NCBI RefSeq assembly: GCF_910592395.1
Contig: NC_088311.1
Span: 14,512,501-14,576,500 of the forward strand
Reading direction: 5' to 3'
DNA: 64,000 nt
Source of the DNA: Lineus longissimus
Taxonomy: Eukaryota > Nemertea > Pilidiophora > Heteronemertea > Lineidae
The notes beneath the pieces were generated by a model, which ran no database searches, was not told where the DNA came from, and saw only the letters and a list, made by a program, of their open reading frames with translations. A program made the position numbers and the translations under genes. Position 1 is the first letter of the stretch. Each line of letters begins with the position of its first letter. This document shows, in pieces, positions 28,471 through 64,000 of the stretch.

Positions 28471-30340
28471 CCATTGTGCTCACCGTATAGATATTTGGTG
28501 CTTTGGAATTCATCCAGGTTAAGAAACATTGTACATGTATAGTATATAGGTCAAACCAAAGTCGGTATGACATGTGATGTATCGTCGCTTGGAGTAAGTA
28601 CCATTATGGTAACCATAAGAATATCATCAAAAACAAGTCGCTGATAAACGAGATATTGCACTTTTTACCAATTTTAGTTTTGGCCTCTTGGTGGCCAAGT
28701 TGAGTACCAGATCAGATCGAAATTCGGTGTCCAAGGTGACATGACGTAGGGAGTCATGTGCACCAAATTTCAAGTTCATAGCTATAGTGGTTAAGAAACG
28801 TGCCATAGTTACACTCAAACGACCAATCTCATATGATATGTGATGTATCCCTGCTAGGAGAACCTACCATAAAAATGTTATTGAAAACGAATCACTAATA
28901 AGCGAGATATCACACTTTCTAGGTTTTCATTTTTGGCCCCCTGGTGGCCAAGTCGAGAATCAAACCGGACTGAAATTCAGGGTCAGAGGTCAGCTGACCT
29001 AGAGGGTCCTTTGTTCAAAGTCTCAAGTTCATAGCCTTAGGGGTTAACAAACGTGCCACAGTTACGCTTAAATGGCCAATTTAAGCCGTTTGACCTCTGC
29101 GACCTTGACAAGAACGTCAAATCAAAAACCCGTATCATATGTGATGTATCCTTGCTAAGAGTATCTACCATAACATTTTTACGAAAAACGAATCAGTAAT
29201 AAGCGAGATATGGCACTATTCAATTTTTTTTGTTTTGGCCCCCTGGTGGCCCAGTTAAGAATCAGAACAGACCGAAAATCAGTGTCACAGGTCATCTGAC
29301 CTAGGGAGTCATGTGTACCAGGTTTAAAGTTCATAGCTTTAGTGGTTAAGAAACGTGCCATAGTTACACACAAACGGCCAATTCACACCATTTGACCTCT
29401 GTGACCTTGAAAATAAGGCCAAATCAAAAACCGTAGGATATGTGATGTATCCTTGCTCTGAGTACCTACCATAAAAATAGAATTGAAAACAAGTCACTAT
29501 TAAGCGAGATATTGCACTTTTTACTTTATTTTTAGTTTTGGCCCCCTGGTGGCCAAGTCGAGAATCAGATCAGACTGAAATTCGGTGTCAGAGGTTAAAT
29601 GATGTAGGGAATCAGGTGCACCAAATTTCAAGTTCATAGCTTTATTGGTTAAGAAAGGTGCCCCAGTTACACTCAAACGGCAAATTTACGCCATTTGACC
29701 TCTGTGACCTTGAAAAGTAGGTCAAATCAAAAACATGTACGATATGTGATACACCCTTGCTAGGAAAATCTACCATAAAAATTTCATCAAAAACAAATCA
29801 CCAATAAGCGAGATATCACACTTTTTAGATTTCCACTTTTGGCCCCCTGGTGGCAAAGTTAGGAATCAGATCGAACCAAAATTCAGCACCAGAGGCGATG
29901 TGATATAGGGGGTTATATGTACCAAGTTTCAAGTTCATAGCTTTAGTGGTTAAGAAACATGCCATAGTTTACACTCTAATGGCCAATTTACGCCATATGA
30001 CCTCTGTGACCTTGAAAACAAGGTCAAATTAAAAACCCGTATAATATAAAATGTATATTTGCTATGAGTACCTACAACAAAAGTTTTATCGAAAACAAGT
30101 CACTTATAAGCGAGATATCACACTTTTTAGATTTCCACTTTTGGCCCCCTGGTGGCAAAGTTAGGAATCAGATCGAACAAAAATTCAGCACCAGAGGCTA
30201 TGTGATATAGGGGGTGATATGTACAAAGTTTCAAGTTCATAGCTTTAGTGGTTAAGAAACGTGCCATAGTTTACACTCTAATGGCCAATTTACGCCATAT
30301 GACCTCTGTGACCTTGAAAACAAGGTCAAACTAGTATTGG
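28452..30340. repeat. 302-bp tandem array with AGGTCA half-sites
   Basis: About six units. The landmark TGACCTCTGTGACCTTGA recurs at 29091, 29393, 29696, 29998 and 30300, spaced 302-303 bp. Other unit landmarks are GGCCCCCTGGTGGC, AAGCGAGATATCACA and GGTTAAGAAACGTGCCA. The left end (GGCCAGGGGCCATTGTGCTC at 28463) is shared with the element starting at 32492. The first unit has an internal deletion. The right end is cut by another element at 30349. Confidence 0.93.
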
Positions 30341-51632: not shown

Positions 51633-51943
51633 GGAATACTAGAGTTCAATGGGTTAATGTAATCATGACTTACTGTATTCCAACAGAAAGTACACGTCAA
51701 TAGCTTTCCAAGGATACATCATTGCAAATATCCATTGAGAAATGGCAGAGAAATGAACCCTTGAAGTTCGCACATCTTGACAGTCCCAGCGTATTCCAAT
51801 AAATGCTGTAGGCCTACAAGACAGCTGTTACAGTGATTAATCATTGTTGCTTGAATCTATTGAAAATAATGTTGACAGTGTCTGCATGTACATGGTAACA
51901 TATGTTACCAAACAATACTCACGTCCCAAAGTATTACAATGGT

Positions 51944-52069
51944 CTATTGTTCGTTAATGCGTTTATCCGACAGAATTTCGAGACATTATTTTAACGACGC
52001 AAAAATAATTTTCAGCGCTGAAAATATTTTTCGAAAATTCTGTCGGATAAACGCATTAAGACACAATAG
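51944..52069. repeat. 126-bp near-perfect palindrome
   Basis: Arms TTAATGCGTTTATCCGACAG (51953 on, extending to AATTT) and complement 52035-52059. Outer CTATTGT/ACAATAG pairs are at 51944 and 52063. The centre is an 18-bp perfect palindrome ATTTTCAGCGCTGAAAAT (52008-52025). It lies 228 bp before the first gene of the virus-like element. Confidence 0.9.
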
Positions 52070-52296
52070 GCCTTTTCATGTCTTTGACAAGCAAAAATAA
52101 TTAATGATTGCAACATCTGATATGGCCATTGTACAACTTAATATCACTATGGTTTAAAGGCAAATGTTATTCTGTCCATGGAGACATGATGTTAACGTCA
52201 CACTTCCTCCATCTGGTGAGATTATTCCATTAAAATAAATGGCCTTTTTACTGTCTTCATTAACCAAAATTCAAGGAAAAAATTCAAGTAAATTAA
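52070..52296. promoter_or_regulatory. AT-rich leader of virus-like element
   Basis: No ORF. AT-rich sequence leads into the first element gene. The left end of the element must lie here or further left, but no long terminal inverted repeat could be checked because the right end is outside the window. Confidence 0.35.
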
Positions 52297-53688
52297 ATGT
52301 ATTATCCAATAGCAAATCAACATAAAAGTAAATTCACCTATGACTTCTTTAATTTAGAAGTAACTGTTAATACTAATAACTTCTTCAGACTACAAGAAAC
52401 TAAGATAACACCTGGGTTTTTGAGCCTGAAAAATAAGAAAGACTGTCTGCTACTGGAAAAGAATCCATTATCGTTTTACCAGAACCAATTTAACATGGCT
52501 GTTTGGTTTGCTACAACAGGTTGTGGTATTTCAATAGACGATCACTTGAATCACAGTGACCCATTGTTAAGGTCAATTTACAGGTTTCATGTTTACTATC
52601 AAATTTTGAAGATCATGAAGAATCTAGAGATACCAATTCCAGGTGAAAGTGATTTTAATGAGACAAACAATAACATTAACCGTAGGAAACTAGGAGGGTT
52701 ATTGAGTGAATTTGGTTTAAAAGACGAGTACGATTTCTCGGTGTTTGAAAATAACGGTGGTTGGAGGTCATGGAATGTACCGGATTACAACCCGAACATA
52801 ACTGATCCCGGATATTACATCAATGATTCTAAAATCAATTTCTTCCTCATGCAAGTTCATGAAAATAGAATGCCACCGATGTTCAGTAAAGACTGGGATG
52901 CTGGAATGGCTAATTTCAAATATCCAGATATTTTCATCAAGGATCATGTCAGGAGACACAAGAATGTATTTGATGTAATTACACAAAATGAATGTCAAAC
53001 CTATCAACAATTCATGATATTTAAATCAAATGGTTTCTCTAATCCTGGAATAGAGAGGTTAAATGATACAATAAGAACATATGTTTACTGTATTCTGGGT
53101 GCTCAGGCGTTGACCAGAACACCAATAATTGGAGTACCGGGTACAGAATTGGATGCACAGAAGGAATTTAACAAACTATTAAAGGATTCGATTAATCAAC
53201 ATCCTGATATTCCCACTTCAATTCAAAGATACCAAAAAGCAGTGAGTGACACTCATACAAGACTAGATTATGTAATATCACCAGGATTGTATGTCATAGG
53301 ATCAAATATGGTACTCGTTATTGGTAAGCTGGATAACTACAATAATAACATTTTAATAGCACCAAAAAATGCTAAACCCGGTAAGAATGACATTAACCAC
53401 AAAAAGACCTTACCACCACCACTGATGGAAGGAAATAGTTCTAAGAAAATAAGAGTTAAGAGTAGCGTTGGTACATCAATGACGGACTTCGTCCTGAGAG
53501 CAAAGCTCGAGACCAGTCATAAACCAAAGAGTAATGTTGATACACCAAAAACAACTGAAACCTCAAAGAATATTCCTATTACTACTAAACTTGACACCAA
53601 AGTTGAGAAGGAGGATGATACTCATAAAACAATTAAATTCATGCTTTACTCAGTTGTTGGTACATTGATTGTTTTTATGGTTAGATAA
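52297..53688 (+). CDS. Virus-like element protein 1, capsid candidate
   Basis: 463 aa, no signal peptide. About 340 N-terminal residues form a folded, aromatic-rich region with FYQNQFNMAVWFATTGCGIS near residue 60-80 and GLYVIGSNMVLVIGKL near 330. A disordered Lys/Thr-rich tail follows, then a C-terminal membrane anchor (FMLYSVVGTLIVFMV, last 15 residues). A copy of the double-hairpin repeat is translated in the tail as TDFVLRAKLET (near residue 398). It is first in the plus-strand block and ends 10 nt before the next gene. From memory, similar proteins sit beside this type of PolB in other animal genomes. A structural role is a guess from position. Confidence 0.7.
   Translation: MYYPIANQHKSKFTYDFFNLEVTVNTNNFFRLQETKITPGFLSLKNKKDCLLLEKNPLSFYQNQFNMAVWFATTGCGISIDDHLNHSDPLLRSIYRFHVYYQILKIMKNLEIPIPGESDFNETNNNINRRKLGGLLSEFGLKDEYDFSVFENNGGWRSWNVPDYNPNITDPGYYINDSKINFFLMQVHENRMPPMFSKDWDAGMANFKYPDIFIKDHVRRHKNVFDVITQNECQTYQQFMIFKSNGFSNPGIERLNDTIRTYVYCILGAQALTRTPIIGVPGTELDAQKEFNKLLKDSINQHPDIPTSIQRYQKAVSDTHTRLDYVISPGLYVIGSNMVLVIGKLDNYNNNILIAPKNAKPGKNDINHKKTLPPPLMEGNSSKKIRVKSSVGTSMTDFVLRAKLETSHKPKSNVDTPKTTETSKNIPITTKLDTKVEKEDDTHKTIKFMLYSVVGTLIVFMVR
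53481..53511 (+). repeat. Double-hairpin repeat, copy 1
   Basis: Hairpins GGAC-TTC-GTCC and GAGC-AAA-GCTC, translated in frame as DFVLRAKLE in protein 1. Confidence 0.93.
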
Positions 53689-53698
53689 ATAAGTAATT

Positions 53699-55312
53699 AT
53701 GGCTGAAGGAGGTGAAAATTATGAAATGGATGATTACGATTCACAATCATCATCATCATCATCAGGAACTTTTGAACAAATTCTAGAAATGAGAAAGAAT
53801 GATTTAATTAATCAATATATTCACGCAAGATACAACACAGGTGAAATCAATAGAACTTTTCAAGATGACGGCACAACATACAACACAGGAGGTGAATATA
53901 TCCAAATGGATGAGATAGATCCTAATACAGGTGAAACCAATAGAACTTTTCAAGATGACGGCACAACATACAACACAGGAGGTGAAAATCTTACTGATGA
54001 AACTTCATTCAGTACACCAGAAAGAGTAAGAGGTATTGTCCCTGAATTGATGGAAAAGGAGTTAAGTTACGATACAATAGAGGATAAACTTGATAAAGCA
54101 TTGGGAGGATCAATCTGGAATTATGACAAGAAAAAATTGAGTAATCTTTCACCACACATTAGTTACAATGGAAACAAACTTTATTACAATCCGAGAAATT
54201 CTGAATTTGATTTGATAAAAGATAAACGAGGAAACAAAAATTTATTTGAATATTCTGATAAAAATGGAGAAAAGATAAAGTTAATTCCTTTAACTAAGGA
54301 TAATGGAAGCTTCTATGCTGAAGGCACATTAAAGAATAAGTATGGTCTGAGATTTGCGGACATGATTAGAGGTATGATTGCACCTGACCCACCAGTAAGG
54401 GAACCTACATTAGTAACCCCTGAAACACAGGCAGTAATTAATGAGGTAAACAGTTCAAACAAACCAATAGATAAACTGATAGATTCTAATGATGATGAAC
54501 TTAAATCACTGGGTTTTACTGAATATGCCTTGAGAGAACTTAGAGGGTTAAAACAGGCTGGTGATAAACTAGCTGCAGTAAAGAGGGATAAGGACATGCA
54601 AATACAAGAACTAGAAAATCAACTTCATAATTTAACAAGAGACTATGTAAAGTCTGTAGAAGAAGATTCTAAAGACACGGTGGAGTTGAAAAAGCAAATA
54701 GATGAACTAAATGACAAATTGCATGAGGAACAGTCAAAGGTATGGAGGTTAGACAATGACAGGGAGTCACAAACTAGAAGAATTAAACGTTTAATTGTTG
54801 ATGTTCTAAAGAAACCAGATTCAACTATTCCTCTGAAGGACAGAATAAAGTTACTTTTTAAGACATATGGTGTAACTATTAGCGCCATAATAACAGCTGT
54901 TGTAATGACATTTACAACTCTAGGTCTTAGTATCAGTAGTGCTTTAAGTGGTGCCACTAAATCTGTAAAACCAACTCCAGGACCAGACCCAACTCCAGGA
55001 CCAGACCCAACTCCAGGACCTACACCAGAACCAGGACCAAAACCATCAATACCAGATAAAGTAAAAGAAGGTCTCAAGAAGTTTGCTGAATGGCTAAAAG
55101 AACTAGCCAAGAAATCAGCTGCGGCTTTACCGGGAATCATCGGTTCTATCGTATCATTTCTCCTGAAAACAATTGGTGCAGTTGTTGGCTTTCTAGCTGA
55201 ACATCTGATCATAGCAGTTATTGCTATTGTGAGCTCCATAATTTATGGTTTAATTGGGGGTGTTAAAGCCTTAAAATCACGTAAAACAGTAAAATCACGT
55301 AAAAGGTCTTAG
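53699..55312 (+). CDS. Virus-like element protein 2, membrane/coiled coil
   Basis: 537 aa. The order is: acidic Ser-rich N-terminus, a duplicated 20-aa unit (NRTFQDDGTTYNTGGE, residues about 50-100), a folded middle, a coiled coil (about 285-365), a membrane segment (ISAIITAVVMTFTTLGLSIS, about 398-420), a PTPGPD repeat (about 424-445), a second long hydrophobic region (IIGSIVSFLLKTIGAVVGFL onwards, about 478-522), and a basic tail. I recall this architecture next to PolB in other animal elements, without a known function. It could be a spike, a membrane-remodelling or a minor virion protein. No double-hairpin repeat is translated in it. Confidence 0.7.
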   Translation: MAEGGENYEMDDYDSQSSSSSSGTFEQILEMRKNDLINQYIHARYNTGEINRTFQDDGTTYNTGGEYIQMDEIDPNTGETNRTFQDDGTTYNTGGENLTDETSFSTPERVRGIVPELMEKELSYDTIEDKLDKALGGSIWNYDKKKLSNLSPHISYNGNKLYYNPRNSEFDLIKDKRGNKNLFEYSDKNGEKIKLIPLTKDNGSFYAEGTLKNKYGLRFADMIRGMIAPDPPVREPTLVTPETQAVINEVNSSNKPIDKLIDSNDDELKSLGFTEYALRELRGLKQAGDKLAAVKRDKDMQIQELENQLHNLTRDYVKSVEEDSKDTVELKKQIDELNDKLHEEQSKVWRLDNDRESQTRRIKRLIVDVLKKPDSTIPLKDRIKLLFKTYGVTISAIITAVVMTFTTLGLSISSALSGATKSVKPTPGPDPTPGPDPTPGPTPEPGPKPSIPDKVKEGLKKFAEWLKELAKKSAAALPGIIGSIVSFLLKTIGAVVGFLAEHLIIAVIAIVSSIIYGLIGGVKALKSRKTVKSRKRS

Positions 55313-55359
55313 GTTACCTTCTATCAAAACAATGTTTAAAAAATAATTATTATGTAAAT

Positions 55360-56532
55360 ATGAATAAATACATCTCATTAAAAGACTATTATTCTAGTGA
55401 GTCGGACTTCGTCCTGAGAGCAGAGCTCGAGTGGAACAATGAGAATCTTAAAGGATACATTCGTCCTAGGGTTATGGATCGAGCTATGCTCTCAGGACTG
55501 CGTCCGACTAGAAATTTTAGTGAAGAAAATGTCAGCAAGAATTATGACAGTGGGAAATTTGATAAGCCTACTGAGACAATCAAAGTAGTCCTGCCAAAAA
55601 TGAAAGAATATGACGTCAGTACCAACACTAATGCTCAATTCTGCCGTAATTGTAAAAGGTGGACACTTTTTGAGTATCAAAAAAACTTGAATTCAGCAAG
55701 GTACGCAGCTAAAACTGTGAAGTATCAATTCTGCACCAATTGCAATTCGACTACTTACGACGATGATTTTAAAACTCTTGAGATCAATATTGACAACAAG
55801 ACACGTTACTTTGACAGTATTCTAAGGAAACTTGGATGGAGTCGGCTGTCCGAATCGGCAGTTAAGTATTTAAAGGACTTTGTGGAAGGGTATTTACAGT
55901 GCTACTTTTCAAGTCACAGAAAATGTCTTAGTAAGCAGAGATATGAAAGTACTCTTCAGTCAGCCCTAAAAATGGGTATTAACACTCTCCCCTCTAAGTT
56001 ATGTAACCAAGGGTTACATGGTGAAGCCATGCTTTTTAAATTTCACTGTGGGGAATATGATTGGTTTCTTGCCATTGAATTTATTAACAGGGCAATTGGT
56101 AAACCGCAATTAACCGATGAGAATATCACTGACCTTAGACTAGTGTACTATGCTTTCCTTAGATTTCTGCATTACTGTGGTGTGAAGGTCACCATTAACT
56201 ACAAGGTATTTTTACACCAAGCCTTTAAAACGCTGAAAATTGATTATGTAATATTTACACCTTTTTTAACCAACAAGGAGCGAGTAAATGATTTGGAGAG
56301 ATTATGGTATGATTTCACTCAAAGTATTTTCTTCCAGAATTACAAGGTTGAGAAGGAATATGACCTGGATATTGACAAGCAGTTTGACGTTTTACTGAGT
56401 GCCAGTGCAGGTCGAGACATTAACTACATCAGTAATATTAAGTTTACACCAGCCGGACTTCGTCCTGAGAGCACAGCTCGAGCCGGACTTCGTCCTCAGA
56501 GCACAGCTCGAGCTAGTGTTAAGATGCAATAA
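55360..56532 (+). CDS. Virus-like element protein 3, zinc-ribbon
   Basis: 390 aa. Two CxxC pairs (FCRNCKRW near residue 94, FCTNCNST near 125) form a probable zinc ribbon. A helical domain follows (YLKDFVEGYLQCYFSSHR to about residue 350). The protein carries four translated double-hairpin repeats: DFVLRAELE near 15, RAMLSGLRP near 42 (opposite orientation), and two tandem copies at the C-terminus (GLRPESTARAGLRPQSTARA). The middle has no repeat. A nucleic-acid-binding role is inferred from the ribbon only; no family recognised. Confidence 0.68.
   Translation: MNKYISLKDYYSSESDFVLRAELEWNNENLKGYIRPRVMDRAMLSGLRPTRNFSEENVSKNYDSGKFDKPTETIKVVLPKMKEYDVSTNTNAQFCRNCKRWTLFEYQKNLNSARYAAKTVKYQFCTNCNSTTYDDDFKTLEINIDNKTRYFDSILRKLGWSRLSESAVKYLKDFVEGYLQCYFSSHRKCLSKQRYESTLQSALKMGINTLPSKLCNQGLHGEAMLFKFHCGEYDWFLAIEFINRAIGKPQLTDENITDLRLVYYAFLRFLHYCGVKVTINYKVFLHQAFKTLKIDYVIFTPFLTNKERVNDLERLWYDFTQSIFFQNYKVEKEYDLDIDKQFDVLLSASAGRDINYISNIKFTPAGLRPESTARAGLRPQSTARASVKMQ
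55401..55508. repeat. Double-hairpin repeat, inverted pair (copies 2, 3)
   Basis: Copy 2 at 55401-55431 is plus (DFVLRAELE); copy 3 at 55479-55508 is minus (RAMLSGLRP). Both are in frame in protein 3, with 47 bp between them. Confidence 0.92.
56452..56512 (+). repeat. Double-hairpin repeat, tandem pair (copies 4, 5)
   Basis: Two plus-oriented copies head to tail with a 30-bp period, read in the GLRPESTAR frame. They form the C-terminus of protein 3. Confidence 0.95.
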
Positions 56533-56583
56533 AGTTGTGAAAACAGCATTTTGCACTCAACAGTCATTTTTCCATAATTTTAA

Positions 56584-57435
56584 ATGAATAATCAGCAAAT
56601 GAATAGTCAGACATCTGCAGTGATTGAACAACAGATGAAACAGATTGGTGTTATGAGTCCTGAGAGCTTAGCTCGAGTTGGGGCTTCTAACCAACAGAAT
56701 ACTGGTAGTTACCAACAAAACAGAACTAACTTTCAACAGAACTGCTCTACAAATCAACAAGTTTCAAACAAGCAGTTGAATAGTTCAAATTTAGTTAATC
56801 CTAGTCAAGGAATAGTTAATCCCAGTCAAGGAATAGTCAATTCTAGTTGCCAACTAGGCTCAACTCGAGCTACGCTCTCAGGACAAAGTCCGACCAGCAA
56901 TCAACAAAATTTGAACTATTTGACTGATAGTGGCCTTAAAGCCAAACAAGACTTAGAGATTCTAGTTGCAACTGGTAAAAGCAAGGATTTCCTTAATAAA
57001 CAAATAACTTTTAATGACTTAGATAATATGACTGAAAAAGAAATCTTAAAACACCATAGAATGTATGAAACAAAGATGGCTGCCAGACTTAATGATTCTT
57101 TGGGTAAGACAGTAATTAAAGCTTACACTAAATTATCAAGGTGGTTATTACCAATAGATGATGAAGATAATCTTTATCATGATCTTAGAAATGATTATTT
57201 GATAACTAACGAGTTGGATAAATGGCTTGGATGGTTGAGTTTGAGAATGGGACCATTAACTGCACTTGCCTCAACAACACTTATTACTTTAGGTCATTGT
57301 CATGAGGAATCATCTATGACTGCATCGAGTATGACTGCATCAAATATGAATACACCAAATATGACTGTCTCTGAATGTGACAAATCAATAGATGAAAGTC
57401 TAGATATCACAGGTAGTGATGATAAAGAAGACTAA
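56584..57435 (+). CDS. Virus-like element protein 4, Gln/Asn-rich
   Basis: 283 aa. The first 110 residues are Gln/Asn/Ser-rich with a NPSQGIV duplication and two translated double-hairpin repeats (MSPESLARV near 23; RATLSGQSP near 95). A helical domain (about 115-245) follows, containing LSRWLLPIDDEDNLYHDL and LDKWLGWLSLRMGPLTALAS, then a Thr/Met-rich repeat (SSMTASSMTAS) and an acidic end. I recall a similar helical domain in other PolB elements, but no function. It is soluble by composition. Confidence 0.65.
   Translation: MNNQQMNSQTSAVIEQQMKQIGVMSPESLARVGASNQQNTGSYQQNRTNFQQNCSTNQQVSNKQLNSSNLVNPSQGIVNPSQGIVNSSCQLGSTRATLSGQSPTSNQQNLNYLTDSGLKAKQDLEILVATGKSKDFLNKQITFNDLDNMTEKEILKHHRMYETKMAARLNDSLGKTVIKAYTKLSRWLLPIDDEDNLYHDLRNDYLITNELDKWLGWLSLRMGPLTALASTTLITLGHCHEESSMTASSMTASNMNTPNMTVSECDKSIDESLDITGSDDKED
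56651..56677 (+). repeat. Double-hairpin repeat, copy 6
   Basis: Plus copy with a degenerate first hairpin (ATGAGTCC) and intact GAGC-TTA-GCTC, translated MSPESLARV. Confidence 0.85.
56864..56894 (-). repeat. Double-hairpin repeat, copy 7
   Basis: Minus copy CTCGAGCTACGCTCTCAGGA followed by CAAAGTCCGAC, translated RATLSGQSP. Confidence 0.93.
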
Positions 57436-57484
57436 ATTAACCTGGTTATGAGAACATAGTTCGAATTAAATTCGGCCAAGATAA

Positions 57485-57991
57485 ATGGAACTTGAAACTG
57501 TAACTGATACTACTCGAGCTATGCTCTCAGGACAAAGTCCGACTAAAGTTTCAGTGTCTAAGAAACCTCGATCAGAGAAACAATTAGCATGGTCTAGAGA
57601 ACTGGGTAGAAGATCTAAGGAATTTAAGAGGATAAAAAAGGATAAGACGACATTTAAAGTACAGGACTCCTCACCAAACAACAGAGTTGTGGAAAAGGAG
57701 GAAGAAGAATTAGAGGAAGAAGAACCACAATCTCAAAATACTGATGTATCACTGCGTGAATCTAGTAGTAATACTTATGTCTATGTACTAGGTTTAGGTG
57801 CAATTATTTTAGCATCATTTATCATGTTTAAGAAACTTCCTAAAAAAGTAAGTAAAGAGCAGCGATCAGGCTTGAATCGAACTTTGTTCTCTGGACAAAG
57901 TCCGAATGAAGCAGTCATGAAGGGATCAATTAACCCTCTTGTTAAACCTGTAGTTAAAGAGAAGAAATGTACTATTCCTTTAATGGAATGA
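57485..57991 (+). CDS. Virus-like element protein 5, membrane anchored
   Basis: 168 aa. A minus-oriented repeat near the N-terminus gives RAMLSGQSP (residues about 11-20). A basic stretch (RRSKEFKRIKKDKT) and a Glu-rich run follow, then a membrane segment TYVYVLGLGAIILASFIMF (about 97-115), and a C-terminal part with another repeat (RTLFSGQSP near 138). It ends 13 nt before the tail of the opposing minus-strand gene. A small virion or membrane protein is plausible; no family recognised. Confidence 0.6.
   Translation: MELETVTDTTRAMLSGQSPTKVSVSKKPRSEKQLAWSRELGRRSKEFKRIKKDKTTFKVQDSSPNNRVVEKEEEELEEEEPQSQNTDVSLRESSSNTYVYVLGLGAIILASFIMFKKLPKKVSKEQRSGLNRTLFSGQSPNEAVMKGSINPLVKPVVKEKKCTIPLME
57513..57544 (-). 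repeat. Double-hairpin repeat, copy 8
   Basis: Minus copy with both hairpins intact (GAGC-TAT-GCTC and GGAC-AAA-GTCC), translated RAMLSGQSP. Confidence 0.95.
57877..57906 (-). repeat. Double-hairpin repeat, copy 9 (diverged)
   Basis: Minus copy with a changed second hairpin (TCGAACTTTGTTCTCT) but intact GGAC-AAA-GTCC, translated RTLFSGQSP. Confidence 0.85.
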
Positions 57992-58002
57992 TCTCATCAG
58001 GT

Positions 58003-58064
58003 GGTCAAGCTTTGCTCTCTGGACTTTGTCCTAGTCCGACTTCGTCTTGAGAGCTCTGCTCGAT
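58003..58064. repeat. Double-hairpin repeats at convergent junction (10, 11)
   Basis: A minus copy (58003-58030) then a plus copy (58034-58064), 3 bp apart. They supply the last 17 or so codons and stop of the minus-strand gene, and lie just after the stop of protein 5. Confidence 0.88.
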
Positions 58065-58985
58065 TCTTAACTCTAAAGAAACCTCTGTTCCTCTGAAATT
58101 AACTAGCTTACCATTCTCATCAGTGATTTCGAATTTTATGTGATTAGTACACTTATTTATCGTTTTCTTACAATTCGGTTCGTATCGCTGCATTTTTATT
58201 TGGTCACCATCTTCTACAGGTATGATGCAGAAAATGTTAGATGGTTTATTGTTGTAGAGGGTCTTAGCTTTGTCAACCAAATTAGCTTGCAGGAATAGAT
58301 ATTTCCTGTAAAAGTTGAGTGGTCTTGTGGAGTAGTATTTTCCTTTCTTGGTGAATTTAGTTTGCTTAAAGCCAAACCACTCATTCACCACTGTGAGCTG
58401 TTTTTCTATCACCTCTCTTATGGTTTTGCTTATTTGAAAACCTTCTGTGTTTCTCTCAATATTGATTTTTTCATTTTTATCTAACTTGTCTACTTTCAGA
58501 GGGTACTCTTTATCCTCTGTAAGTTCAAGGGTTATGTAATTATTGTTATCACAGTAAATTTTCACATGGCTAATTCCAATTTCTTTTATGTATTTTTGCC
58601 ATACCTCACAAAACTCACTTAAACTAAAATGTCGAGAGTATGGAAATGTGTATTGAGTAATGGTGTCTTTAGTTGTGGTAGATTCATTTTCCAAATGCCG
58701 TTCGCAAATTTTCATGACTTCCTTTTCAAGTGTATCTGTTTCAAGTCCAGGAGCAAATAATGTCCTACACCATAATTGTTTATCTAAGGGCTCATGTGTT
58801 GTAATTCTGGTTATTTCGACTAGAAATGAGAAAATCCTGACTCCCTCTGGTAGAAAATCACCTGTCCACCATGAATTGTAAAAGGTTATCGATTTCAAAG
58901 TAATGGATTTTATGTCTAATTGGTCTGTTAAGTAGTACTCAAATTTGGCTTCATTACATTCTTGTTCATTGATTATGAAGTCCAT
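58005..58985 (-). CDS. Virus-like element protein 6, penton-like candidate
   Basis: 326 aa, minus strand. It is beta-rich by composition, with KSITFYNSWW near the N-terminus. Before the repeat-derived tail it has KFEITDENGKLVNFRGTEVS followed by LELRI (about 290-308), a pattern like the final strands of single jelly-roll penton or minor capsid proteins in Polinton-type elements (F.I.D..G..V.F.G..V...L.I). The last residues (EQSSQDEVGLGQSPESKA) are entirely the two double-hairpin copies. It is divergent from PolB over a 23-56 bp gap. The penton role is inferred, not shown. Confidence 0.62.
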   Translation of the reverse strand: MDFIINEQECNEAKFEYYLTDQLDIKSITLKSITFYNSWWTGDFLPEGVRIFSFLVEITRITTHEPLDKQLWCRTLFAPGLETDTLEKEVMKICERHLENESTTTKDTITQYTFPYSRHFSLSEFCEVWQKYIKEIGISHVKIYCDNNNYITLELTEDKEYPLKVDKLDKNEKINIERNTEGFQISKTIREVIEKQLTVVNEWFGFKQTKFTKKGKYYSTRPLNFYRKYLFLQANLVDKAKTLYNNKPSNIFCIIPVEDGDQIKMQRYEPNCKKTINKCTNHIKFEITDENGKLVNFRGTEVSLELRIEQSSQDEVGLGQSPESKA

Positions 58986-59041
58986 TTCTATTTAATTCAA
59001 GATATTTATTGAATTTAATAAATTTTAATCTAATAAATAGA
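58986..59041. promoter_or_regulatory. Short divergent promoter region
   Basis: At most 56 bp, strongly AT-rich (TTTAATTCAAGATATTTATT), separate the starts of the minus-strand protein 6 gene and PolB (if it starts at 59042). It must serve both genes or be transcribed through. Confidence 0.45.
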
Positions 59042-62000
59042 ATGACTGATAAGAATCAGAAAATACTTTGCACTACATGTGACAAGTACATATCCTACAA
59101 TAATATGGCTATTCACAGGAGAACCAAAGGTCACTTAAGTAAATTAAATCCGGATTATGTCCCTATTGCTCAACCCCGAGCCCCATCACTGATCCCTAAA
59201 ACTATGGATAAGAAACTTGCATTTGAGGAAAATGAGCTAGATGGCATAAAGAAAGTGAGTGGAATAGAAATAGTAAAACAATTTGGCAAGCCTGTAGTCA
59301 CCATTAGTTTGAAGATTGACAGAGAAGCTAAACAAGTGTATGAATACAGAGATAAATTAGAGGAGGTATTATTTCAACTCAATGATTACCATCACAAAAT
59401 TAGCATATCAGTATTTGCTCAGTTTGATCGTCAGGGTGAAAGTGTAACACACCCCATACAGTCTCCAATGGAAAGCATAATTTCAAGGAACCAGGCAATT
59501 TATGCCATAACCAACCAGTTAAACTACATAAAGACACAGATTGAGGAAAGGTACTTTCAAGGTTCTGGACTTACTTTAAATAAAATAGAGTCTTGTAACA
59601 TGACCATCTGTTCTTACAAGAGGTGTAAAGGTGGTCATTACACTAAATTACCATTTAAAACAAAAGCAGTAATAAATGTGGAATCAAATGACAATAAATG
59701 TTTTCTCTGGTCTTTATTGGCCGCTAAATATCTGAAAGAAAATCCAGAGACGGACTTTGTCCTGAGAGCAGAGCTCGAGAGTACATTCAATATCACTACC
59801 GATATGCTACAAATGACTTCGTCACGAGAACAGAGTTCGAAAACTACTGATATCAAAATCAAATCATTTCCTGTATGTATTCAAAAGGATATCCCTAAGA
59901 TAGAGAGTGATAATAATCTCAAAATTAATGTGTTCAAGTTAGAGAACGAATGGGCTAAGAGCACCTGTGAGGCAAAACTAGAACCTCTCTACCTGTCCAA
60001 GAATTATGATGATGATGATGTCATCGATCTGTTGTATTTCAAGGACCATTTCATGTACATAAGAGACATCAATCTTTTCTTCAGGACACTAGCTCATAGA
60101 GTGTATCTTTGCAGGAGATGCATGAATTACTTTTACAGGAAGTCAACACTAGATAAACATAAAAAGAAATGTGGAGAACACGATTACTGTAAGATTACTT
60201 TGCCTCCACCTAACAGTAAATGGTCACAAATTAAATTTGAAAAACACTCATTCAAAAATAGAGTTCCGTTTGTGATCTATGCTGATTTCGAAGCGATAAG
60301 CGAACCTTGTTCTTCTGCCGAAGGCAACATACCAGTAGTATCAGTAGAGCCACCTATGATGAAAGAACCGAGTTCAAAGAACCTTTTTAAACAAAATGCA
60401 TCAGCTGTTGGTGTTTATGTTCATTCAGACTACACACACCTTTACAGTAGCCAGTATGTGTCTCACAGGGGTGCTGATGTTGTAGATGTGTTCTGTAATT
60501 GGTTAATCAGGATGGAAGAACAATTCTCTAATTTATTGAACTGTAACTTTCCTCTAACAATGACAGATGAAGACTGGCATAAATATCAATTAGAAACACA
60601 TTGTTACTATTGTAATCAACCTTTGGGATATGACAAGGTCAAGGATCATGATCACTACTGTGGTAGATATCGAGGTGCTGCTCACAACTCGTGTAATTTG
60701 AATGAAAAGAAAGCTATGTTTGTTCCAGTGTTTTTTCACAATCTCAGTAATTACGATTCTCACTTATTTATTAAAGAATTAATGAATAAGCTACCGAAGT
60801 ACAAGAAACTGAAAATACTTGCCAAAACATCAGAGGAATACATTTCATTTCAGTTCGGTTGTTTCAGGTTTTTGGACTCGTACAGATTTCTGCAGTCCAG
60901 TTTAGACAACATAACCAAATCAATGTTGGATGATGATTTTAAAATTACCAGACAGCTGTTCCCAAATACCACTGACTTTAAGCTATTGAGGAAGAAAGGT
61001 TCAGTACCTTACTCTTTTTACACATCACATGAAAGCTACAATGTTACTTACCTAGAAAAGTCTATGTTTTTTGACGAATTGAAAAATGAAATGGCACCTG
61101 ATTCTGCCTATGATGAGGCTAAGGTAATATGGGATCATTTCAAGATCAGGAATCACGGTGAGTTCATTGACCTCTACCTCAAAACTGATGTGATCCTTTT
61201 AGCTGATTTATTTGAGAAATTCAGGGATGTCAATTTGAACTACTTTCAGATAGATCCATGTCACTGTTACTCGGCACCAGGCCTAACCTGGCAAGCTGGT
61301 TTGAAGTACACAGGAATAAACCTAGAACTACTGACTGATACCAACATCTTACTTACTTTTGAGAAAGCAATACGAGGTGGAATTTCGGGTGTTATGGGAA
61401 CAAGACATGTAAAGGCAGATGAACACCACAAACTACTCTACATAGACGCAAATAATCTCTACGGCTGGTCCATGATGGAACCTCAACCCTATGGTAGTTT
61501 TGAAATGATAGATATTGATCCACTTAACATGAATGTTATCAGTAAAGAGCAGATTATGGCAATTCCAAGTGATAGTGAAGTAGGCTACTTCTTAGAGGTT
61601 GATTTGGAGTATCCAGGAAATATTAAATTTAAGTCAAGGAACTTTCCATTCTGTCCCGAATCTCTCTTTATTGAAGATGATGAATTAAGTCCTTACCAGA
61701 GAGAGTTACTGGGTGATGATAAAAGATCAAATGTAGAGAAACTAATACTAACACAAAAGGATAAAACTAATTACATAGTGCATTACAGAATGCTACAATT
61801 TTACCTAAAGCACGGAATGGTACTTAAGAGGGTTCATTCAGTGATAAGCTTTAAACAATCAAAGTGGTTAGCACCATACATTGATTTTAACACTAAAAGA
61901 CGTATGGACTCTAAGACTGATTTTGAGAAAGACTATTTTAAACTGATGAACAATTCTTTTTATGGAAAAACTTGTGAGAACATAAGGAACAGGGTTGAAA

Positions 62001-62773
62001 TTGAATTTGTATCGGACGGGGAGAGAGCCAGGAATGTAATGGCCAATCCCAGGTTTTCATCGATATGCGTATTTGACGAACATAATGCTGCTATTAGCAT
62101 GAGGAAAACATCAATGAAATTCAACAAACCAATCTACATAGGAGCTTCAGTACTTGAATTGTCTAAATTATTAATGTATGAATTCTATTATGAAGTTCTT
62201 CAACCGTACTTTGGTGAGAAAAATATTGAACTGCTGTATCTAGATACAGATTCCTTTGTACTTAACATTAATACTGATGACTTAACTAAAGACTTAAAGG
62301 AGTTGAGACACTATTTTGACTTCAGTAATTATCCAAAAGATCATACACTCTATGACACCAGTAAGAAGAAGGTACCAGGCTACTTTAAGGATGAGCTAGG
62401 AGGAGTAGAGATGACTGAATTCATTGCCCTGAGAAGTAAGATGTACGCTTACAGGACCAAGACTATGTCTGGAGAGCAAGGATCGACAAAAGATTACGAT
62501 TCTAAGAAATTGAAGGGTATTGCCAAGAATGTAGTAAGGAGAAATATCTCATTTGATGACTATGTTGATTGTCTTGAAAAGAGTAGGTCATTTTACCACA
62601 AGATGAGACACTTAAGATCAGATAAACACCAAATCTATTTGGAAGAAGTTGACAAAAAAAGCCTCAGTCCTTTTGATGACAAGAGGTTCATACTTGAAGA
62701 TGGAATAAGCACCTTACCATTTGGAATGTATTATGAAGGCTACATAGATTACAGCGATTCAAACTTCGCTTGA
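59009..62773 (+). CDS. Protein-primed-type DNA polymerase B
   Basis: 1254 aa, or 1243 from the Met at 59042 (MTDKNQKILCTTCDKYIS), which is the more likely start. Features in order: N-terminal C2H2 finger (CTTCDKYISYNNMAIHRRTKGH, about 20-42); ExoI YADFEAI (about 423); an HNH-like insert CYYCNQPLGYDKVKDHDHYC (about 533-553) with RGAAHNSCNLN; ExoII HNLSNYDSHLF (about 576); ExoIII YLKTDVILLAD (about 723); motif A YIDANNLYGWSM (about 810); motif B NNSFYGKT (about 980); motif C YLDTDSFVL (about 1076); KLKGIAKNV (about 1167). Catalytic residues are intact. Two double-hairpin repeats are translated at about 247-277, outside the catalytic core. It replicates the element, by analogy with Polinton and adintovirus enzymes. 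Confidence 0.93.
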   Translation: MNLINFNLINRMTDKNQKILCTTCDKYISYNNMAIHRRTKGHLSKLNPDYVPIAQPRAPSLIPKTMDKKLAFEENELDGIKKVSGIEIVKQFGKPVVTISLKIDREAKQVYEYRDKLEEVLFQLNDYHHKISISVFAQFDRQGESVTHPIQSPMESIISRNQAIYAITNQLNYIKTQIEERYFQGSGLTLNKIESCNMTICSYKRCKGGHYTKLPFKTKAVINVESNDNKCFLWSLLAAKYLKENPETDFVLRAELESTFNITTDMLQMTSSREQSSKTTDIKIKSFPVCIQKDIPKIESDNNLKINVFKLENEWAKSTCEAKLEPLYLSKNYDDDDVIDLLYFKDHFMYIRDINLFFRTLAHRVYLCRRCMNYFYRKSTLDKHKKKCGEHDYCKITLPPPNSKWSQIKFEKHSFKNRVPFVIYADFEAISEPCSSAEGNIPVVSVEPPMMKEPSSKNLFKQNASAVGVYVHSDYTHLYSSQYVSHRGADVVDVFCNWLIRMEEQFSNLLNCNFPLTMTDEDWHKYQLETHCYYCNQPLGYDKVKDHDHYCGRYRGAAHNSCNLNEKKAMFVPVFFHNLSNYDSHLFIKELMNKLPKYKKLKILAKTSEEYISFQFGCFRFLDSYRFLQSSLDNITKSMLDDDFKITRQLFPNTTDFKLLRKKGSVPYSFYTSHESYNVTYLEKSMFFDELKNEMAPDSAYDEAKVIWDHFKIRNHGEFIDLYLKTDVILLADLFEKFRDVNLNYFQIDPCHCYSAPGLTWQAGLKYTGINLELLTDTNILLTFEKAIRGGISGVMGTRHVKADEHHKLLYIDANNLYGWSMMEPQPYGSFEMIDIDPLNMNVISKEQIMAIPSDSEVGYFLEVDLEYPGNIKFKSRNFPFCPESLFIEDDELSPYQRELLGDDKRSNVEKLILTQKDKTNYIVHYRMLQFYLKHGMVLKRVHSVISFKQSKWLAPYIDFNTKRRMDSKTDFEKDYFKLMNNSFYGKTCENIRNRVEIEFVSDGERARNVMANPRFSSICVFDEHNAAISMRKTSMKFNKPIYIGASVLELSKLLMYEFYYEVLQPYFGEKNIELLYLDTDSFVLNINTDDLTKDLKELRHYFDFSNYPKDHTLYDTSKKKVPGYFKDELGGVEMTEFIALRSKMYAYRTKTMSGEQGSTKDYDSKKLKGIAKNVVRRNISFDDYVDCLEKSRSFYHKMRHLRSDKHQIYLEEVDKKSLSPFDDKRFILEDGISTLPFGMYYEGYIDYSDSNFA
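59749..59841 (+). repeat. Double-hairpin repeats in PolB (12, 13)
   Basis: 59749-59779 is a clean plus copy (TDFVLRAELES). 59816-59841 is a diverged plus copy (ACTTCGTCACGAGAACAGAG), read as SSREQSSK. Both lie in the variable N-terminal third. Confidence 0.85.
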
Positions 62774-62774
62774 G

Positions 62775-62865
62775 TACGACTACGTCTTGAGAGCATAGCT
62801 CGAGTTGCAAAAATCATTATTCGGACTTTGTCCTAGTCGAGCTTTGACCTGAGAGCATAGCTAGA
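62775..62865. repeat. Double-hairpin repeats after PolB stop (14, 15)
   Basis: 62775-62805 is a plus copy with CATAGC; 62820-62865 combines GGAC-TTT-GTCC, a minus-like CGAGCTTTG piece and a plus-like GAGAGCATAGCT. All are untranslated. Confidence 0.85.
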
Positions 62866-62970
62866 TTAAACTAATGAATAGGGTGGTGCTGATGGTAGTG
62901 TTACTTGGTGAAATTCATCCCTAACACCGAAGTCATGATAATAGTGATAGTGATACACCACATTAGGATT

Positions 62971-63043
62971 AGGACGTAGTCCGGGTCCGACTTCGTCTTG
63001 AGAGCATAGCTCGAGTCGAACTTTGTTCTCTGGACGTAGTCCG
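62971..63043. repeat. Double-hairpin repeat cluster (16, 17)
   Basis: Half copy GGAC-GTA-GTCC at 62971, a plus copy 62986-63016 and a minus copy 63016-63043 sharing bases, just beyond the stop of the minus-strand gene at 63057. Confidence 0.88.
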
Positions 63044-63056
63044 GGTCCTGTTTGAT

Positions 63057-63716
63057 TTACTGAACTTTTAGTTTTTCTGGCATCTCTGTCTGTGCTAGTT
63101 TTTTTCCTTCTTCTAAAAAAGTCTTCTTTAAAGACTCTACATCAACAGCTGAACTTGCCTCCCTTTGTTTTTTCCTAATGGCATTTTTCATCGAAATGTA
63201 TTTCTCCTTCTCCTTGAGAATCAAAGTAAACTCATCTGTAGATATGTGAGAATCGGTTAAGGCTTTACTAACCAAATCATTGATTGTGTTCAGTTTTGAA
63301 ATTGCCAACATTCTGATATTCTCATGCTTTTCAATTTTCTTAAGAATATTCTTTTTCTCCCAGCCTAAGGCTGATGAAATAATGGCACTACCTATTGTTA
63401 CGCCACCCAAAGCTAAGCCTATCGGTGCCGTGATGACACCAGCTAGAGCGGAAACACCAACAGATCCGGCTGCTACGCTAGTTAAATTAAGGAAATGGCT
63501 AATGCCAGTAATTACGCTAAATGCTTTTTTGTACTTTGAAAATATCTTTCTTCTAAATTCAATCTCGCTTTCTAAGAAACTCTTAACCTCACATATTTGT
63601 TGTAGTCTGAAAGCCTGAGGGTTACTTTCTGTATGCTTTTCAGACCTTTCATAGTTCAAATGACTTTCAGAGTTTAAATTACTTAAATCTGGATAAACCT
63701 TATTGTCTCCATCCAT
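63057..63716 (-). CDS. Virus-like element protein 7, hydrophobic hairpin
   Basis: 219 aa, minus strand. A charged N-terminal helix leads to a Gly/Ala-rich hydrophobic core (about 75-115: VAAGSVGVSALAGVITAPIG, then LALGGVTIGSAIISSALG), typical of a membrane-inserting helical hairpin as in apolipoprotein-L- or colicin-like folds. A conserved-looking helical tail follows (KLNTINDLVSKALTDSHIST, then EFTLILKEKEKYISMK). I recall this protein, with the ALTD.HIS block, beside PolB elements in other animals; its function is unknown. It starts 5 bp from the end of the next minus-strand gene. No translated repeat. Confidence 0.7.
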   Translation of the reverse strand: MDGDNKVYPDLSNLNSESHLNYERSEKHTESNPQAFRLQQICEVKSFLESEIEFRRKIFSKYKKAFSVITGISHFLNLTSVAAGSVGVSALAGVITAPIGLALGGVTIGSAIISSALGWEKKNILKKIEKHENIRMLAISKLNTINDLVSKALTDSHISTDEFTLILKEKEKYISMKNAIRKKQREASSAVDVESLKKTFLEEGKKLAQTEMPEKLKVQ

Positions 63717-63720
63717 TTAA

Positions 63721-64000
63721 TTAGTGGGAATAACTAGAATCAGTTGTTCTGTCATTTCTAGTGTTTAGTGTTGATCCTACAGACACTACAGGTTTTTGAA
63801 GTACATTAAATTTTAAAGGTTTTTCTGTCCCAACAGGTTTTTCTGACCCAACAGGTTTTTCTGTCCCAACAGGTTTTTCTGTCCCAGCAGGCCCAGCAGG
63901 TTTTAAAGGTTTTTCGGGACCAGGCTCCAACTTTGACTCTACTTCTGCCTCTAATTCTCTATGAAATCGTTTTAATCTTTCTTTCCAATTACGTGGTCGT
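63721..64000 (-). CDS. Partial gene with GTEKPV repeats
   Basis: Minus-strand frame that ends at a stop at 63721-63723 and runs off the window (WKERLKRFHRELEAEVE at the edge). It has four GTEKPV/GSEKPV repeats (from 24-bp DNA repeats at about 63805-63890) and a Ser/Thr-rich C-terminus. The first Met in the window (63930) is probably not the start because the frame is open to 64000. No family recognised. Confidence 0.6.
   Translation of the reverse strand, partial: RPRNWKERLKRFHRELEAEVESKLEPGPEKPLKPAGPAGTEKPVGTEKPVGSEKPVGTEKPLKFNVLQKPVVSVGSTLNTRNDRTTDSSYSH

Follow-up and report, generated by a model that had tools for sequence, protein, structure and literature searches.

A probably mobile 27-bp double-hairpin unit in the genes of a Polinton/Maverick element of Lineus longissimus

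The described systems closest to the sequence reported here are the GC clusters of yeast mitochondrial DNA, together with double-hairpin elements known from the mitochondria of fungi and sponges. In the passages cited, the yeast clusters (GC42 and others) are flanked by AG or ACT direct repeats and their loops change more than their stems; GC42 itself is 42 bp long, its 89 positions are intergenic or intronic, and the enzyme that mobilises it is not settled (PMC4478555). The double-hairpin elements are described as dispersed and presumed mobile, with occasional genic copies that stay in the transcripts (PMC10085805; PMC2800124). The palindromic elements of Rickettsia (RPE), which are bacterial and 100–150 bp long, are often found in orthologues as an insert at the same locus (PMC3767692). 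The mobility of such mitochondrial and Rickettsia micro-elements has been argued largely from their patchy presence. Here we describe a unit of 27 bp, made up of two consecutive hairpins, from a virus-like element in the genome of the nemertean Lineus longissimus. It was recognised in a stretch of 64,000 nucleotides of contig NC_088311.1 (C4:14512501-14576500), hereafter the window, to which all coordinates refer unless another stretch is named. The results summarized below indicate that this unit is probably a non-autonomous mobile DNA that spreads within a family of Polinton/Maverick elements. To our knowledge it would be among the smallest mobile DNAs. Approximately 3000 matches to it are present in one genome, those examined are located in related virus-like elements, and both its boundary and the duplication that accompanies it are known to the base.

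Filled and empty sites, stems and reading frames

The consensus of the unit is C-GGAC-N3-GTCC-TGA-GAGC-N3-GCTC-G, in which two hairpins with 4-bp stems and 3-nt loops (4-3-4) are separated by a 3-nt spacer. Sixteen of its 27 bases are G or C, versus a GC content of 34 to 38% across the element, and it occurs in both orientations, and also in tandem or back to back. The preliminary description of this locus, based upon the window, had proposed that orthologous proteins of the element be aligned, and a comparison of copies of the element was carried out on 18 stretches, viz. positions 51901-64000 of the window and 17 other loci of the genome (identified by L numbers), by piecewise alignment followed by automatic matching of 45-bp flanks. 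These stretches contain 248 distinct units, of which 131 have an empty allele in another copy of the element, giving 517 comparisons. In 509 of them, exactly 3 bp of the empty allele belong to both flanks of the unit. The overlap was 2 bp in three comparisons, two involving a single unit with a damaged end and one a GAT/ATC site, and 0 bp in five, where in our reading the flanks were placed on neighbouring units. For the 71 copies that do not adjoin another unit, a 3-bp overlap was observed in 216 of 219 comparisons. When the sites were grouped, 20 non-tandem site clusters were found to be filled in some copies of the element and empty in others, which means that orthologues do not uniformly have these residues at the same places. 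Of these clusters, 18 showed the 3-bp overlap; one of the two exceptions is again the site in gene p4, in a copy with a damaged end. The insertion is seen directly by alignment in the genes p3, p5 and PolB, and one PolB site holds a unit in L015 alone, with ten other stretches being empty there. Each insertion consists of the unit plus a 3-bp target duplication, i.e., a net gain of 30 bp or ten codons, and for this reason the reading frame, and with it the gene, survives insertion.

Insertion has occurred mostly at ANN sites, with AGT/ACT commonest. The targets read from the empty alleles of the 20 site clusters, in the orientation of the unit, were AGT in seven cases, AGA, GGT, ACA and ATT in two cases each, and ATC, AGC and GTT in one case each (the remaining two lack a 3-bp overlap). 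Among 122 distinct flank pairs, the left and right 3-mers were identical in 69 (mean 23.6 and maximum 34 in 1000 shuffles), and an initial A was present in 120 of the right flanks and 104 of the left 3-mers. In the window alone (19 copies), 42 of 57 bases matched over the three flank positions indicated by the empty alleles, versus 28.7 upon shuffling, and this value was not reached in any of 2000 shuffles. A second and weaker match between the window flanks is present at offset 10 (z 3.1 to 4.0), which a 3-bp duplication does not explain; this signal was set aside once the empty alleles gave 3 bp.

The number of units at one position also differs between copies of the element. At its end, p3 has 30-bp units arranged in a tandem array, which contains two units in the window (56454-56510), four in L012 (3609-3727) and seven in L014 (5553-5761). 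In L012 the piece of PolB that aligns with window positions 60100-60700 carries, relative to L013, a 15-bp insertion with a single hairpin (GAGC-TCT-GCTC), which could be a half-unit.

Departures from the majority base in 222 copies found by sequence averaged 5.9% in the stems and 30.1% in the loops. Because covariation counts that use copies found by structure are biased by how these copies were found, we have relied upon a count made on 77 distinct sequence-found 27-mers, in which 24 cells were changed on both sides of a stem, compared to a mean of 4.7 and a maximum of 10 in 500 shuffles. These both-side changes include GAAC/GTTC, AGAC/GTCT and GTAC/GTAC. Inserts recognised from gaps in the alignments similarly have compensated stems, viz. 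GACC/GGTC in L013 and GTAC/GTAC in L012.

The copies situated in genes can be read in any frame. Those lying wholly within tblastn matches of the window proteins, 159 in number, are spread over all six frames, and the recurring peptides are DFVLRAxLE, GLRPESTAR and RAMLSGQSP. Of the 21 copies placed in such a way that a TGA spacer would act as a stop codon, 0 have TGA and AGA, CGA or GGA is found instead, whereas 124 of the 138 copies in the other five frames have TGA (Fisher P = 3e-17, the copies not being independent). Stop codons within or next to the reading of the unit were observed in 7 of the 159 copies, of which six are located where p6 ends and the seventh in p3. The avoidance of TGA in this frame would be expected for translated inserts in genes that are subject to selection, and it suggests that the inserts are translated under constraint.

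Distribution of the unit and its host element

A scan of the 64 kb on both strands with CGGACNNNGTCCTGAGAGCNNNGCTCGAG (23 fixed bases) detected 16 sites that differ from it at 5 positions or fewer, and all of these are at 53483-63043. The best site outside the element had 8 mismatches, in accordance with the earlier statement that no copy was seen in the other 52 kb, and five shuffles of the last 12 kb gave no site with fewer than 7. The sequences GGACNNNGTCC and GAGCNNNGCTC each occur 13 times in the window, 13 and 12 times, respectively, in the last 12 kb. With the 16 sites masked, a scan for structure only detected, in 10,875 unmasked bases, three further perfect double hairpins (4-3-4/3/4-3-4) versus 0.34 expected (P = 0.005). 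In all three, the second hairpin is still surrounded by the constant bases, and this pattern is found once in the other 52 kb. Together with a decayed copy at 62459, which was added by comparison with other copies of the element, the window contains 20 copies at 53483-63043, 15 within six open reading frames (ORFs) and five intergenic. The preliminary description had reported about 17 copies of a ~30-bp repeat in both orientations, with stems GGAC/GTCC and GAGC/GCTC, in five of nine genes. The repeat is real and its orientations are as described, with a count that is now 20; its length is corrected to 27 bp, and the 30-bp period results from this unit plus the 3-bp target duplication. Those stems are the canonical plan, and some window copies have others that are compensated (GAAC/GTTC, TGAC/GTCA, TAAC/GTTA). 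The genes affected are six of the eight complete element ORFs seen (p1, one copy; p3, four; p4, two; p5, two; p6, two; PolB, four), and p2 and p8 carry none.

A search of the genome (391 Mb, 30 contigs) with a 25-base core, allowing up to 2 mismatches, gave 1501 forward and 1508 reverse matches (3009 in total), and the reversed core pattern gave none in the same search. The 100 exact places that were listed, 92 on contig C1 and 8 on C2, group into 12 clusters, each with a fetched stretch that encodes the element or a diverged relative. It is for these listed places that confinement to such elements, which the preliminary description had proposed to examine by a genome-wide search, is shown; inexact matches and those on other contigs enter as counts. 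The 92 places on C1 form 11 clusters between 8.63 and 14.65 Mb of this 29.44-Mb contig. Fifteen stretches fetched from this contig contain 87 of these places, and each of the 15 codes for proteins belonging to the element or a diverged relative; the other five places, outside the fetched stretches, lie in the same 11 clusters. Similarly, seven of the eight listed C2 places are inside L024, an element-bearing stretch. Sixteen of the 17 stretches fetched by genomic position match at least one of the proteins p1 to p8, and the seventeenth is L016, described below. The stretches L010 and L011 match the window proteins as a diverged relative (31 to 78% protein identity), whereas other copies are mostly 70 to 99% identical to them in their longest matches. 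L010 and L011 contain one and three units, respectively, and the p4 unit of L011 sits at the p4 site of the window. The copies are not mitochondrial, since the contigs that carry them measure 25 to 29 Mb and they are accompanied by element DNA with an integrase.

By its gene content the element carrying these units is a Polinton/Maverick. PolB is a family B DNA polymerase (DNA_pol_B_2, 1.8e-19, Pfam), and L016, which continues directly from the right end of the window, encodes an rve integrase (8.8e-12) with a chromodomain (1.1e-7) and a packaging ATPase of the A32/FtsK type (Pox_A32, 6.8e-15). In a search for the double jelly-roll major capsid protein, an ORF of L016 matched Capsid_N at 3.7e-4, which is under the Pfam cut-off. 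The capsid-like reading in L016 (4810-5963, minus strand) is split over two overlapping ORFs in different frames, and this copy looks broken there. Polintons have terminal inverted repeats and duplicate 6 bp of their target. By eye, an inverted repeat with arms of ~25 bp is present left of p1, at 51955-52062. The claim that in-frame palindromic inserts have colonised a virus-like element is supported by the filled and empty sites and by the clustering of the listed places in such elements; the Polinton identity, for which the integrase and ATPase lie past the window, and the duplication itself go beyond what had been described.

The individual copies and genes are, from left to right, as follows; the 16 copies for which no other source is named were found by the sequence scan. 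The gene p1 (52297..53688, plus strand, 463 aa), which matches no known family, carries one unit at 53483..53509 (+), read as DFVLRAKLE, and this site is empty in L018 with the 3-bp target AGA. It is followed by p2 (53699..55312, +, 537 aa), which has no unit and whose family matches are weak; those to tape-measure proteins were set aside as low-complexity noise. In p3 (55360..56532, +, 390 aa), the N-terminal part contains one unit at 55403..55429 (+), read as DFVLRAELE (empty in L015, L018 and L020, target AGT), and another at 55480..55506 (−), read as RAMLSGLRP, which is empty in L014, L018, L019 and L020 and has the dissimilar flanks AGT/ATC. At its C-terminus are the tandem units 56454..56480 (+, GLRPESTAR) and 56484..56510 (+, GLRPQSTAR), for the second of which comparisons of array length gave a 3-bp overlap, AGC. 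The N-terminus of p4 (56584..57435, +, 283 aa) is rich in Gln/Asn. Its two units are a decayed one at 56649..56675 (+, VMSPESLAR), with a broken first stem and present in 12 stretches, and one at 56866..56892 (−, RATLSGQSP), which is empty in L015, L017, L018, L019 and L020 and is flanked by GGT/AGT. The structure scan detected a diverged intergenic unit at 57437..57463 (+) with the compensated stems TAAC/GTTA and GAAC/GTTC.

Within p5 (57485..57991, +, 168 aa), the unit at 57515..57541 (−, RAMLSGQSP) is empty in L015, L018, L019 and L020 (target AGT), and a second one at 57878..57904 (−, RTLFSGQSP) has GAAC/GTTC as its second stem. Both units of p6 (58005..58985, −, 326 aa) are located at its C-terminus, at 58006..58032 (−) and, in the orientation opposite to the gene, at 58036..58062 (+). 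PolB (59042..62773, +, 1243 aa) has a weak endonuclease VII-like match at residues 518-565 and contains four units. The first (59751..59777, +, DFVLRAELE) is empty in L020 with target AGA. The second (59813..59839, +, structure scan) is diverged, with stems TGAC/GTCA and GAAC/GTTC; its spacer is CGA, and the frame is the one in which a TGA would terminate translation. The third (60301..60327, −) is a possible, much-decayed unit (TGCC/GGCA and GAAC/GTTC), identified from structure alone and the weakest of the 20. The fourth (62459..62485, +, added by comparison of copies) is decayed, with first stem AGAC/GTCT and spacer GGA; it is unit-like in eight stretches and empty in L015, L020 and L021 (target ACA). 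Intergenic units 3′ of PolB are present at 62776..62802 (+), 62838..62864 (+, with a rearranged first stem), 62987..63013 (+) and, adjoining the latter, 63017..63043 (−), which has GAAC/GTTC as its second stem and is empty in L024 with a 3-bp overlap. The last gene, p8 (63057..63716, −, 219 aa), has no unit.

An Rfam scan of the window gave no match at gathering scores, and the unit pattern had no match in a viral contig collection or in prokaryote genome contigs. No confirmed relative of PolB or p1 was found in the viral contig collection, where the PolB motif had 0 matches and the single contig matching the p1 motif (L001) was rejected because its reading frame looks unrelated by eye, and PolB had 0 matches in a plasmid collection. 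Searches of the PDB with PolB, p1 and a cysteine-rich ORF of L016 (see below) gave no match, while p6 gave weak matches to designed proteins and nothing else. A single-sequence AlphaFold model of p1 (pLDDT 31) was not usable. Elsewhere in the window, five copies of a 302-bp tandem satellite are present at 28832-30330.

Mechanism and alternative explanations

If the unit is a mobile DNA, as we consider probable, a nuclease acting in trans would make a staggered cut in the target, giving rise to the 3-bp duplication, and the hairpins, extruded or single-stranded during replication of the element, would be what this enzyme recognises or copies. Insertions that are in frame would persist where they do little harm, in tolerant parts of proteins. 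The integrase of the element is unlikely to be the mobiliser, since Polintons duplicate 6 bp. Two weak leads to a candidate enzyme come from the sequence. One is the part of PolB that resembles endonuclease VII (5.8e-4 in Pfam, which does not reach the cut-off; PHROG 6.1e-5). The other is the cysteine-rich ORF beyond the window (L016, 147-1274, minus strand), of 375 aa, which is Asn-rich with cysteine pairs and has a DH...N...N pattern that is HNH-like by eye, and which matches no family. Tentatively, and with confidence that falls somewhat short of even, we suggest that a virus-encoded, hairpin-recognising enzyme moves a unit that lives only inside Polintons, where, with ten codons gained per insertion in any frame, it would be a naturally occurring insertion mutagen of viral proteins and a nuclear, viral counterpart of the mitochondrial GC clusters.

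A number of observations weigh against the unit being mobile in the manner proposed. No mobilising enzyme was found. The left and right flanks are identical in only 11 of the 20 site clusters, and the empty allele equals the left flank in 13 and the right flank in 14; the dissimilar flanks at 55480 (AGT/ATC) and 56866 (GGT/AGT) could be due to later mutation, or part of a flank could travel with the unit. The strongest match between window flanks is one base nearer the core than the position given by the empty alleles (40 of 57 versus 21.8; 0 of 2000 shuffles), and it stays when tandem or clustered copies are omitted (12 copies, z 5.1; 9 copies, z 3.3), while the outermost of the three flank columns matches no better than expected from composition (13 of 19 versus 13.3). 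Covariation is weak (1 pair, 2 cells) when the count is limited to the 16 window copies found by sequence. The stability of two canonical units, folded as DNA on either strand, was not out of the ordinary (z −0.66 to −1.62 versus shuffles), and for the GAAC variant at 57877-57905 a single long hairpin was preferred (z −2.9 and −2.5). Additionally, the counts of copies are not independent, as the copies that occupy one site in different elements are related. Trees based upon unit-free pieces of p4 and p6 (13 and 10 sequences, three having been left out of the second) appear to disagree in the placement of L013 and L020, and recombination or gene conversion between elements may move filled sites about.

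The main rival, which we regard as unlikely although far from negligible, is template switching: while PolB replicates the DNA by strand displacement, a 3′ end carrying a hairpin would anneal elsewhere by a 3-base AGT microhomology and be extended, leaving a copy with identical three-base flanks without any dedicated nuclease. The prevalence of AGT as the commonest flank on both sides, the A that follows the unit in 120 of 122 flank pairs, and a flank that is at times donor-like (55480, 56866) would all be understandable in this manner, as would tandem arrays that vary by 30-bp steps and the 15-bp single-hairpin insertion in L012. However, at the AGA, ATT and AGC sites both flanks are equal to the target, as a staggered cut predicts, and the exact boundaries in 509 of 517 comparisons would, in our judgement, be unusual for copying of this kind.

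Much less probable is that the filled state is ancestral and that exact deletions between the 3-bp repeats gave rise to the empty alleles. Such deletion would yield identical alleles, and gene conversion between copies is possible. Nonetheless, the PolB site filled in L015 only, with its ten empty counterparts, speaks against it, and no clear footprint retaining both 3-mers was observed, the five zero-overlap cases being read as placement on neighbouring units. At least as improbable is a cis-acting signal (an origin, packaging signal, enhancer or operator) that is held in place by selection and is not mobile, for which the hr repeats of baculoviruses provide the comparison case. Many sites are common to several copies of the element, and among the eight translated window copies that are near-canonical no departure was seen in the 128 positions of the 16 stem columns, compared to 12 of 48 in the six loop columns, both of which would suit such a signal. 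It is contradicted by the filled and empty sites with their 3-bp duplication, although a secondary role after insertion is possible. L018, which matches all eight window proteins with 66 to 95% identity (p8 over 40 residues only), has 7 units, in contrast to 13 to 26 in each of eleven other stretches with this element (window, L012-L015, L017, L019-L022, L024), and the compensated changes in the stems are not something that a protein operator would favour. Lastly, a protein repeat motif selected for its peptide, to which the recurring peptides might point, can be virtually dismissed, as all six frames, on either strand, are used to read this DNA, which is intergenic as well, and with the DNA stems conserved it is the peptide that varies by frame.

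Comparison with known systems

Taking the unit to be mobile DNA, its features can be compared with those of other small elements. The miniature inverted-repeat transposable elements (MITEs) of Pandoravirus salinus are ordinary terminal-inverted-repeat transposons, far longer than 27 bp. Of the features of MITEs, the unit has a 3-bp target-site duplication; its hairpins were considered as close inverted copies, i.e., as terminal inverted repeats, and this was dropped as only 4 to 8 of 13 non-loop bases agree in the 11 copies examined. What these MITEs provide is an example of non-autonomous mobile DNA that colonises a viral genome (PMC4495683). In the REP/RAYT system, tiny dispersed palindromes, perhaps mobilised in trans, are characterised in the passages cited by a GTAG tag and a tyrosine transposase (PMC3733652); GTAG is not found at the ends of the unit, and no Y1 transposase was detected among the 17 ORFs scanned with Pfam, which cover part of the element. 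The PARCEL coding palindromes, which are translated and form tandem 25-residue protein domains, and those of Nematomorpha, which are long inverted repeats translated in mitochondrial genes, resemble the unit in being translated, but as described in these sources they are not mobile units of 27 bp (PMC2996958; PMC6649704). The RPE share with it their palindromic nature and the insertion into ORFs with the frame being kept, and differ from it in length (PMC3767692). Among the titles and abstract openings retrieved from the open-licence PMC literature with the terms used, no such unit was described in a Polinton.

The mitochondrial systems show the greatest similarity. The double-hairpin elements of fungi and sponges likewise consist of two consecutive hairpins and are dispersed, but they are mitochondrial and are mostly located in intergenic regions or rRNA genes, and the passages cited mention neither target duplication nor preservation of a reading frame (PMC10085805; PMC2800124). 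With the yeast GC clusters the unit has in common that it is short, hairpin-forming, GC-rich within AT-rich DNA, patchy in its presence and flanked by short direct repeats, whereas, unlike GC42, it is 27 bp long, nuclear, part of a virus-like element and mostly coding, and its 3-bp duplication has been read from empty alleles (PMC4478555). The ACT/AGT flanks that it shares with some of the yeast clusters point to enzymes of one kind or to a shared physical process, or else are coincidental.

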